A DNA stretch of 33,171 bases from contig JALONU010000009.1 in assembly GCA_025454775.1 (NCBI GenBank), forward strand, positions 1-33,171, in the 5' to 3' direction. The first letter of the stretch is position 1. Each line of letters begins with the position of its first letter. This document shows, in pieces, positions 29,245 through 33,171 of the stretch. Origin of the DNA: Bacteroidales bacterium (GTDB lineage Bacteria > Bacteroidota > Bacteroidia > Bacteroidales > VadinHA17). The notes below the pieces were generated by a model. It searched no databases and was not told where the DNA came from. It worked only from the letters and a program-made list of their open reading frames with translations. Position numbers and translations under genes: made by a program.

Positions 29245-31119
29245 ATGAAACTTGAGTATGATATAATCGTAGTTGGCGGGGGACATGCAGGGTGCGAAGC
29301 AGCACATGCAGCAGCCAGGATGGGAGCAAGAACTCTGCTGATAACGATTGATATGACAAAGCTCGCACAAATGTCTTGCAATCCTGCAATGGGAGGAATT
29401 GCAAAGGGACAGATAATAAGGGAAATTGATGCATTGGGGGGAATGAGCGGCATTATAACGGACCGCAGCACCATTCAGTTCAGAATGCTTAACAGATCCA
29501 AAGGCCCTGCGATGTGGAGTCCGAGGGCTCAATGTGACAGGGTAAGATTTTCAATAGAGTGGAGGAAATGGTTGGAGAGAACTGAAAACCTGCATATCTG
29601 GCAGGAGCTTGCAGTTAAGATAATTATGAAGGAAGGAAAAGCTGCAGGTGTGGAAACAGCTTTTGGAAACAAAATGTATGCAAAGAAAGTGATTCTGACA
29701 AACGGAACCTTTCTGAACGGTCTGATGCATGTGGGATTTGAAAGAATGCCTGGAGGCAGATCAGGAGACCAGGCATCGACAGGGCTAAGCGACCAGCTGT
29801 CAAAAATTGGCCTTAAGGTTGAAAGATTGAAAACAGGGACAAGCGCGCGGATAGACGGAAGAACGGTAGACTTTAGAAAAATGACCGAACAGAAAGGTGA
29901 TGACGAAGGCAGAACATTTTCTTATTTGGGGGAAAGGAAAAGAAATAGAAAGCAGAAAAGCTGCTTTATAACACATACCAACAGGGAAGTTCACGAGGAG
30001 TTGAGAAAAGGACTAAAATTCAGTCCGCTGTTCCAGGGAATAATTAAAGGAAGAGGACCAAGGTATTGCCCAAGCATTGAGGACAAAATTGTAACTTTTG
30101 GAGATAAGGAAGCACATCAGCTTTTTCTGGAGCCTGAAGGTAAGGATACGATTGAGTATTACGTTAACGGCTTTGCGAGCAGCCTGCCTCTTGAAACACA
30201 GATTAAGGCGTTAAGAAAGGTCCCGGGACTGGAAAAAGTAGAGATATTCAGGCCTGGATATGCAATTGAATACGATTTTTTCCAGCCAACACAATTAAAA
30301 CATACTCTGGAAAACAAGACAATTGAAAATCTGTATTTCGCTGGACAGATAAACGGGACGACGGGATATGAGGAAGCGGCAGCACAGGGGATAATAGCCG
30401 GAATAAACGCAGTAAGGAAGATAAGGGGAGAGGAAGAATTCATTCTTGGAAGGGACGAATCATACATAGGGGTGCTTATTGACGATCTGGTGACAAAGGG
30501 AGTTGATGAACCATACAGAATGTTCACATCGAGGGCGGAATACAGGATTTTACTTCGGCAGGATAACGGTGATGAAAGATTAACCAGGAAAGGATTTGAA
30601 ATAGGTCTTGCAGACAGGTCAAGAATAAGAAAACTTGAAGAAAAGGAGAGGACGGTAAAGAATATAATAGGATACCTTGATGAAAGAAGTGTTGCACCGG
30701 TAGAGATTAATGATTTTCTGAGGGAAAGAAACACTTCTGAGATTAAGCAGGCCGTAAAGGCACTGACACTTGCACTTAGGCCGCAAGTTGAACTGGAGGC
30801 ATTCCTGGAAAGAATAGAAGCAAAAAAGATATTGGAAGCAGAACTGAGAAGGTACAACGATGAAATAATAGAGGCAGCTGAGATAAGAATAAAATACGAA
30901 GGATACATTCAAAGAGAAAAGGCTATTGCTGATAAGATAAGAAGACTCGAGAATGTCAGAATCCCGGTCGATGTTAATTACGGGGAATTATTGTCAATAT
31001 CAACAGAGGGAAGACAAAAGTTATCCAGGCTAAAACCATCAACCATTGGGCAGGCAGGAAGAATCAGCGGTGTTTCTCCATCAGATATAAATATTCTGTT
31101 AATGTACCTGGGCAGATAA
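29245..31119 (+). CDS. mnmG: tRNA uridine-5-carboxymethylaminomethyl(34) synthesis enzyme MnmG (GidA)
   Basis: IIVVGGGHAGCEAAHAAARMGARTLL, CNPAMGGIAKGQI, GQINGTTGYEEAAAQGIIAGINA. Confidence 0.97.
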   Translation: MKLEYDIIVVGGGHAGCEAAHAAARMGARTLLITIDMTKLAQMSCNPAMGGIAKGQIIREIDALGGMSGIITDRSTIQFRMLNRSKGPAMWSPRAQCDRVRFSIEWRKWLERTENLHIWQELAVKIIMKEGKAAGVETAFGNKMYAKKVILTNGTFLNGLMHVGFERMPGGRSGDQASTGLSDQLSKIGLKVERLKTGTSARIDGRTVDFRKMTEQKGDDEGRTFSYLGERKRNRKQKSCFITHTNREVHEELRKGLKFSPLFQGIIKGRGPRYCPSIEDKIVTFGDKEAHQLFLEPEGKDTIEYYVNGFASSLPLETQIKALRKVPGLEKVEIFRPGYAIEYDFFQPTQLKHTLENKTIENLYFAGQINGTTGYEEAAAQGIIAGINAVRKIRGEEEFILGRDESYIGVLIDDLVTKGVDEPYRMFTSRAEYRILLRQDNGDERLTRKGFEIGLADRSRIRKLEEKERTVKNIIGYLDERSVAPVEINDFLRERNTSEIKQAVKALTLALRPQVELEAFLERIEAKKILEAELRRYNDEIIEAAEIRIKYEGYIQREKAIADKIRRLENVRIPVDVNYGELLSISTEGRQKLSRLKPSTIGQAGRISGVSPSDINILLMYLGR

Positions 31120-31121
31120 TG

Positions 31122-31137
31122 TGTTCCACGTGGAACA
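31122..31137. promoter_or_regulatory. parS-like centromere site TGTTCCACGTGGAACA
   Basis: Perfect 16-bp palindrome matching the TGTTYCACGTGRAACA parS family. Confidence 0.75.
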
Positions 31138-31226
31138 ATTTTTATTATTTATTATTTAATTTTAAATTGTTCATATATCTCACAGATTTCATATCCGAAC
31201 AAATATATTAAAATATGTTGTCGCAG

Positions 31227-31246
31227 GGACATTGCATGCAATGTCC
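31227..31246. repeat. Palindromic repeat copy 1: GGACATTGCATGCAATGTCC
   Basis: 20-bp perfect palindrome; second copy at 31299-31322. Confidence 0.85.
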
Positions 31247-31298
31247 ATGTGTGTAAAACATAGGTTTCGTAAGGAAACAAAATTCAAAATATTGTGGT

Positions 31299-31322
31299 AG
31301 GGACATTGCATGCAATGTCCCT
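31299..31322. repeat. Palindromic repeat copy 2: AGGGACATTGCATGCAATGTCCCT
   Basis: 24-bp perfect palindrome. Confidence 0.85.
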
Positions 31323-31410
31323 GCATGAATACCATAACATTTGGATATGGTTGTTAAATACATTAGGTCTGATAAAAAGGAAATGCAATGGTATATCCAA
31401 ACAATAAAAT

Positions 31411-33039
31411 ATGGATAATATGAAAATACAGGGCCGATTAATAGACATATTCAACAGGCAGATATTCGATGCAGAAATCGAAATCGAAAATGGAATGATC
31501 GCTGACATCAAAGAAATATCTGCGTCAGAAAGAAGAGATTATATAATGCCCGGATTAATCGATGCCCATGTCCATATAGAGAGCTCAATGATAACCCCTG
31601 GTTCATTCGCAATGGCAGCTGTTTCACGTGGAACAACCGGCGTTGTTTCGGATCCTCATGAAATAGCCAATGTAATGGGACTGCAGGGAATTGATTTTAT
31701 GATAGAAGATGGCAGGAAAACCCCATTCAGGTTCTGGTTCGGCGCACCATCCTGCGTTCCTGCTACAACGCTGGAAACCTCAGGTGCACGACTGGATGCT
31801 TCAGATACCGAAAAGCTGCTTAAAAGAGATGATATTAAGTTTCTGGCAGAAATGATGAATTTCCCCGGGGTGATCAATGACGATGAGGAAGTATTAAAAA
31901 AAATAGCGGCAGCCAGGAAGCTTGGAAAACCTGTTGACGGTCATGCACCCGGACTCACCGGACCAGGCCTGAGGAAATATATAAATGCCGGGATAACGAC
32001 GGATCACGAATGCAGCTCCATAGAAGAAGCCCTGGAGAAGATATCCCTTGGAATGAAAGTTATTATCCGTGAAGGAAGTGCCGGCAGAAATTTGCAGGCG
32101 CTTAAATCCCTCTATGCTGATTATCCGGAAATGATAATGCTCAGCAGTGATGACATCCATCCTGAAATGCTGAGAGAAAGACATCTCGACAAGCTCCTTG
32201 CCCGGCTCATAGATGATGGTTACGATATGTTCGATGTTATAAGAAGCGTAACGCTTAACCCGGTGCTCCACTACAACCTTAACGCGGGACTCCTGAGGCC
32301 GGGAGATCCTGCCGACTTCATAATTGTGGATGATCCCAGGAAAATGAATATCCTGGAAACATGGATAGGAGGACAGAAAGTCTATGAGAACGGGAATGTG
32401 CTTTTTAAATATGAGCCCGGAGAGCCTGTAAACAAATTCAATTGCAGACCAGTAGGAAGCACAGAGATTGAGGTTCCATGGAAGCCCGGAGAAATAAGGG
32501 TGATCACAGCTTTCGACGGAGAACTCTTTACGAAGGAAACACTTTTTGAACCAGCCCGGGGAACATTCATCGAAACAGATATTTCCGCTGATATCCTTAA
32601 GATCATCGTAAAGGACCGATACAATGATGCTCCGCCGGCCGTGGGATTTATAAAAGGATTCGGTCTTAAACAGGGGGCCTTTGCTTCCTCGGTTGCTCAC
32701 GACAGCCATAATATCATCGCAATAGGCACCAACAATGAGGATATTTTAACAGCTGTAAATGAAGTAGTTAAGTTAAAAGGAGGTCTGGCTGTATGCAGCA
32801 GTGGAAAAGTAGATTCACTGCAGCTTAACATTGCCGGAATAATGTCCGATCGCTCATGCAGTGAGGTCGCCGGAGATTACGTAAGACTGTCAGCATTGGT
32901 AAAAAGCCGGGGCTGCACAATGTCGGCGCCATTCATGACCCTCTCATTCATGGCGCTCCTGGTTATCCCCGAACTCAAGCTCAGCGACCGCGGACTGTTC
33001 GACGGCAACAAGTTTCAGTATATGCCTTTGTTTGTCTAG
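31411..33039 (+). CDS. ade: Adenine deaminase
   Basis: IMPGLIDAHVHIESSMITPGSFAMAAVSRGTTGVVSDPHEIANVMG, DDIHPEMLRERHLD. Confidence 0.95.
   Translation: MDNMKIQGRLIDIFNRQIFDAEIEIENGMIADIKEISASERRDYIMPGLIDAHVHIESSMITPGSFAMAAVSRGTTGVVSDPHEIANVMGLQGIDFMIEDGRKTPFRFWFGAPSCVPATTLETSGARLDASDTEKLLKRDDIKFLAEMMNFPGVINDDEEVLKKIAAARKLGKPVDGHAPGLTGPGLRKYINAGITTDHECSSIEEALEKISLGMKVIIREGSAGRNLQALKSLYADYPEMIMLSSDDIHPEMLRERHLDKLLARLIDDGYDMFDVIRSVTLNPVLHYNLNAGLLRPGDPADFIIVDDPRKMNILETWIGGQKVYENGNVLFKYEPGEPVNKFNCRPVGSTEIEVPWKPGEIRVITAFDGELFTKETLFEPARGTFIETDISADILKIIVKDRYNDAPPAVGFIKGFGLKQGAFASSVAHDSHNIIAIGTNNEDILTAVNEVVKLKGGLAVCSSGKVDSLQLNIAGIMSDRSCSEVAGDYVRLSALVKSRGCTMSAPFMTLSFMALLVIPELKLSDRGLFDGNKFQYMPLFV
31620..31635. 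promoter_or_regulatory. Second parS-like site TGTTTCACGTGGAACA, inside the ade coding sequence
   Basis: Fully matches TGTTYCACGTGRAACA; encodes V-S-R-G-T in ade. Confidence 0.65.
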
Positions 33040-33040
33040 A

Positions 33041-33145
33041 GTCATTCGATTGCTTTGCCATCTGTAGCCTTGGCGAAGGCTGGTCATTCGATAGTCATTC
33101 AATTGCTTTGCCAGCCGAAGTTTCAACGGAGGCTGGTCATTCAAT
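33041..33145. repeat. Two degenerate 52-bp tandem repeats (33041-33092, 33094-33145) followed by an inverted GAATGAC end
   Basis: gtcattcgattgctttgcca...ggctggtcattcgat and gtcattcaattgctttgcca...ggctggtcattcaat; 8-bp inverted repeat gtcattca (33136-33143) / tgaatgac (33156-33163). Confidence 0.8.
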
Positions 33146-33171
33146 GGACTAACAATGAATGACGCCCCGAG

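Follow-up and report, generated by a model that had tools for sequence, protein, structure and literature searches.

Can one stretch of DNA encode part of an enzyme and at the same time serve as part of a centromere? The question is raised by a 33,171-nucleotide stretch of a Bacteroidales genome (contig JALONU010000009.1, lineage VadinHA17; the window in what follows), where a parS-like 16-mer lies inside the adenine deaminase gene ade. Chromosome segregation in Bacteroidota is little studied. Intragenic parS sites occur elsewhere, Bacillus subtilis having one inside spo0J. For Pseudomonas aeruginosa PAO1, nine out of ten parS sites are predicted to lie inside coding sequences (PMC4368675). 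In the literature searched we found no report joining parS and adenine deaminase, and nothing relevant on codon or synonymous constraint at parS.

A probable second parS site inside ade

The 16-mer TGTTTCACGTGGAACA at 31620–31635 is an exact match to the 16-bp parS consensus TGTTNCACGTGNAACA and is palindromic except at positions 5 and 12, which form a hybrid T/G pair. It occupies the last base of codon 70 plus codons 71–75 of ade (31411–33039, forward strand); these codons, GCT GTT TCA CGT GGA ACA (31618–31635, forward strand), read A-V-S-R-G-T, and the site is in frame over V-S-R-G-T, just as the initial annotation had it. The host gene is full-length, with both adenine deaminase domains present (Pfam Amidohydro_1 and Adenine_deam_C), and its product has a solved relative in Adenine deaminase 2 (3nqb). 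The other site, TGTTCCACGTGGAACA (31122–31137), is intergenic and lies 3 bp past the stop codon of mnmG/gidA (29245–31119, forward strand; assigned by Pfam GIDA, E=7.7e-162, and synteny), the conserved neighbour of parS. The separation originally given, 498 bp, holds when measured from start to start (31122 to 31620).

Two sites this close together are hard to obtain by accident. The earlier estimate of about 3e-5 motif occurrences expected in the window is arithmetically right (3.09e-5 on recomputation). When up to two mismatches are allowed, the window holds just two parS sites, those at 31122 and 31620, and dinucleotide shuffles of it give a mean of 0.09 sites at the same tolerance and never two. 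Across the 3.28 Mb draft genome (288 contigs) these are the only exact sites, which places the embedded site 498 bp from the sole other one. One further site with a single mismatch, on contig C103, was rejected as an additional parS as it is at chance level (expectation 0.5 for up to one mismatch). For a single gene that encodes A-V-S-R-G-T with codons used as in these genes, the probability of the 16-mer is 3.5e-4.

The surrounding DNA has other repeated elements. A perfect 20-bp palindrome, GGACATTGCATGCAATGTCC, is present in two copies (31227–31246 and 31301–31320) in the 270-bp spacer between parS and ade, and the contig end after ade (33040–33150) carries the short direct repeats GTCATTCGATTGCTTTGCCA and GTCATTCAATTGCTTTGCCA. 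We found no usable origin marker on the window contig. In the single-contig relative G010 the GC skew is too noisy to place the origin; the positions there are 1.35 Mb for parS, 1.50 Mb for parB and 2.21 Mb for dnaA, dnaA being no reliable marker of the origin (PMC10197239).

The intergenic site and its likely reader

Among the 117 genomes of the family, 89 have an exact parS and 98 an ade homologue, and the usual gene order in the ade-bearing genomes is gidA–parS–ade. The gidA-side position is occupied at 85 gidA-bearing loci, usually 3–10 bp after gidA and in 74 of the 85 with the symmetric C/G form. A parS after gidA is present across the order, even where the fetched flank showed no ade. 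The embedded site shares with this intergenic parS of the Bacteroidales its 14 fixed consensus letters, its tolerance at the outermost pair and its locus. They differ in that the intergenic one is non-coding and almost always symmetric, whereas codons restrict the embedded one. On one side of the palindrome the enzyme's glycine (GGA) would fix a G, while serine (TCA) or proline (CCA) would set T or C on the other, and the T/G hybrid form in this genus would thus follow from the codon constraint. Elsewhere in these genomes, genus g14 has a parS that is slightly degenerate, TTTTCCACGTGGAACA or a variant of it, directly 3′ of the uvrC stop codon, and genome G041 a weaker parS-like site at the same place (loci L100, L105, L108, L109, L112 and L149).

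The genome has one ParA–ParB pair, encoded by adjacent genes on contig C239, and the genome search returned a single ParB_N match. Aligned to Noc structures, this ParB has Arg at the position of Gln173 and Gly at that of Arg201; Arg and Gly at these specificity positions are the parS-specific state, Gln173 and Arg201 that of Noc (PMC7383237), so the Noc-type residues are absent from this protein. Nucleoid occlusion by Noc at NBS sites resembles the present case in that the protein belongs to the ParB family and the palindrome is related; it differs in that the only ParB detected here is of the parS type and the site fits parS, not NBS. When the family's 85 gidA-side and 31 embedded sites are compared with the consensus, departures fall almost only at the outermost bases, the same bases tolerating change in both sets; the exception is a position-9 G to A in embedded sites that encode V-P-H-G-T.

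Codons and residues under the site are constrained

Within the genus the embedded site is found at the same ade codons in 20 exact copies, six differing at the outermost base only and five of the form TGTTCCACATGGAACA, which encodes V-P-H-G-T and has the central position-9 mismatch, a change that may bear on ParB binding. The initial annotation had proposed comparing synonymous conservation at these codons with that of their neighbours. In the 25 congeneric ade genes with SRGT, codons 71–74 (GTT TCA CGT GGA) are invariant (25/25) and ACA is kept in 22 of the 25; codons 69, 76 and 78 are as variable as the remainder of ade. On a genus tree of gidA plus ade, built with the site columns left out, codons 71–74 show 0 changes; the comparison set, 120 other conserved codons that are at least fourfold degenerate, averages 10.6 changes per codon and never falls below 4. 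The frozen arginine codon, CGT, makes up only 7.6% of Arg codons in these genes. In the five V-P-H-G-T genes, the site always begins with T, though the residue encoded there is A, S, S, C or V.

The amino acids are affected as well. SRGT had been taken for a conserved ade segment, which is wrong: most relatives without the embedded site read V-[K/R]-H-G-T at the same codons, and parS would therefore have set the amino acids as well as the codons. The Gly-Thr is common to nearly all ade homologues; the segment belongs to the amidohydrolase domain and ends a short way ahead of the conserved DPHEIAN motif. In this family SRGT was found solely with the parS spelling, so the centromere appears to have changed the protein; judged by these comparisons, SRGT is present on account of parS and not parS on account of SRGT. 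Agrobacterium Ade2 also has Arg at this position (V-A-R-G-V), and the enzyme fold therefore probably tolerates the change. The proposal of a dual-use coding and centromere sequence is thus supported, and extends beyond codon choice to the amino acids, with ParB as the probable reader.

Losses, a pseudogene and unlinked copies of ade

In a nested clade of 17 congeners the embedded site is gone and the ade codons and residues drift, while all 17 keep an exact gidA-side site; three have TGTTCCACGTGAAACA just downstream of ade instead. Free synonymous drift in relatives retaining the 31122-type site had been named beforehand as grounds for abandoning the dual-use proposal. Such drift is literally what this clade has, and it is not seen in the 25 SRGT genes. 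We read the clade as one loss of a site that is useful but dispensable, and which is therefore not essential.

The opposite situation is found in G041, where ade has been cut down to N- and C-terminal remnants and both parS sites are exact. The pseudogene has stop codons and retains the site: its N-terminal remnant is 69% identical to the sister gene outside the site, with 16/16 letters matching inside. Retention in this one genome could partly reflect recent decay. Judged from its sequence, the gene between the remnants (locus L149) is an apparent adenine phosphoribosyltransferase; adenine salvage would then have switched here, beside parS. Three further genomes (G037, G038 and G059) have a broken or deleted ade and still carry the parS after gidA.

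Eleven ade homologues whose fetched flank shows no gidA are without the embedded site; they come from the same genus, the same family, other Bacteroidota, Thermoplasmatales and Cloacimonadota. The four from the same genus are distant copies (49–52% identity) and therefore a limited control.

The same codons carry the site in other families

A first order-wide search with the pattern GCN GTTTCACGTGGAAC found no ade-embedded site other than that in G000. A wider order-wide pattern revealed family f30 and a genome of a third family, G206. A Carboxylicivirga record (Marinilabiliaceae) has a symmetric parS at the same ade offset, an arrangement shared by the g223 genomes of f30; 46 of the 71 f30 genomes match the pattern. 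Among 53 ade loci examined in f30, 42 have the site, encoding V-P-R-G-T in 39, V-S-R-G-T in one and V-P-H-G-T in two. In the 39 V-P-R-G-T genes codons 71–74 again show 0 changes, 94 other codons having a mean of 16.0 and a next lowest value of 1, and all four bases occur at the outermost site base, the third position of codon 75. In both families, then, the DNA letters are under purifying selection beyond that on the protein. G206, a single case, has I-V-S-R-G-T with the site at the same offset. The total is at least 74 Bacteroidota genomes in three families (31 + 42 + 1) with the site at the same codons, a count that admits sites with up to one mismatch in the inner 14 bases. VSRGT, VPRGT and VPHGT occur in different lineages: the letters of parS are preserved, the peptide is not.

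A second place in the gene is also affected. Near the ade C-terminus, where other genera have unrelated residues, the sister genera g8, g10 and g15 have an in-frame mirror image of the one-mismatch form, TGTTCCATGTGGAACA, which encodes V-P-C-G-T (L102, L104, L121 and L137, at codons near 480); its conservation suggests that this one-mismatch form of parS is used.

How the site came to be there is a matter of balance. When the first two families are placed on one tree, the presence of the site changes six times, and within our genus it was probably inherited from one ancestor. We give an even chance to the proposal that parS arose repeatedly at the same ade codons (as V-S-R-G-T in one genus, V-P-R-G-T in the Carboxylicivirga family and I-V-S-R-G-T in the third family), with the C-terminal one-mismatch form (V-P-C-G-T) arising separately in the three sister genera, and that the centromere steered the enzyme sequence. 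Recurrence would come about because ade adjoins the order-wide parS position after gidA. The alternative is one ancient embedded site followed by many losses. Two sister genomes differ widely at this locus: locus L308 of G569 has eight exact parS in an array of ~105-bp repeats, 186–947 bp upstream of ade, in addition to the embedded site, and its sister G570 has no site in the fetched stretch, the embedded one being eroded (AATTCCACGCGGAACT, written by codon).

Discussion

What, then, preserves the 16 letters? A lucky codon combination might simply have been inherited with its DNA letters unselected, and the probable single ancestor of the site in our genus would suit such an account. It would, however, require a near-zero mutation rate at 14 bases only, given four consecutive codons without change on a tree where comparable codons never have fewer than four, and the zero-change pattern repeats in the second family; being already contradicted, it is extremely improbable. 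Nor is there any appreciable probability that the DNA match is a by-product of an enzyme that needs V-S-R-G-T. The location of the segment in the amidohydrolase domain near DPHEIAN and its nearly universal Gly-Thr do speak for constraint on the protein, but such constraint cannot fix third codon positions, that of the rare CGT included, and most homologues have K/R-H-G-T while the site-bearing lineages use three different peptides, which contradicts it as the sole cause.

If the letters themselves are selected, something other than ParB might read them. A regulator of ade is conceivable, since many genomes have the gidA-side site a short way upstream of ade, and ParB itself might also influence ade transcription. 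Yet the letters are those of the textbook parS consensus, ade copies distant from gidA are without both sites, genomes with a lost or broken ade keep the gidA-side site (G041 keeps both), and parS follows gidA throughout the order with or without a detected ade nearby; we consider another DNA-binding protein unlikely. It is very unlikely that the palindrome acts as a hairpin or pause signal in the ade mRNA. The 16-mer is self-complementary, and invariance of codons alone would fit a function in either DNA or RNA, but a stem would permit compensatory pairs where the exact parS letters are kept instead, the embedded site matches an intergenic DNA site down to its pattern of tolerance, and a pseudogene with stop codons retains it.

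Very probably, then, ade carries within its coding sequence a second chromosomal parS, the 16-mer, bound by ParB as the intergenic site most likely is. A ParB dimer would bind the embedded site just as it would the intergenic one 498 bp away; from these two closely spaced loading points ParB clamps would spread and build the partition complex, which ParA would then move. From general knowledge of ParABS, a second entry point would be expected to make the complex more robust. We infer that ParB is the reader, that it loads at the embedded site in vivo and that the cell gains a more robust centromere.

As in P. aeruginosa PAO1, a predicted ParB site lies inside a coding sequence with another parS nearby, and could in principle be mutated by synonymous changes. 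Unlike there, ade is the host, genera and families alike use the same codons, and the peptide differs from the one in relatives that lack the site. Intragenic parS is already known; what is added here is one codon position conserved across families and a shift in amino acids. The locus gives a clear example, from the comparison of genomes, of DNA used both by an enzyme and by an element of chromosome segregation through a long span of evolution, and carries a warning that conserved residues or odd codons in genes near parS may reflect ParB and not protein function. With its site-bearing lineages, one clade of losses, a retaining pseudogene and siteless unlinked copies of ade, it offers a natural experiment on what a second parS does in the Bacteroidota.
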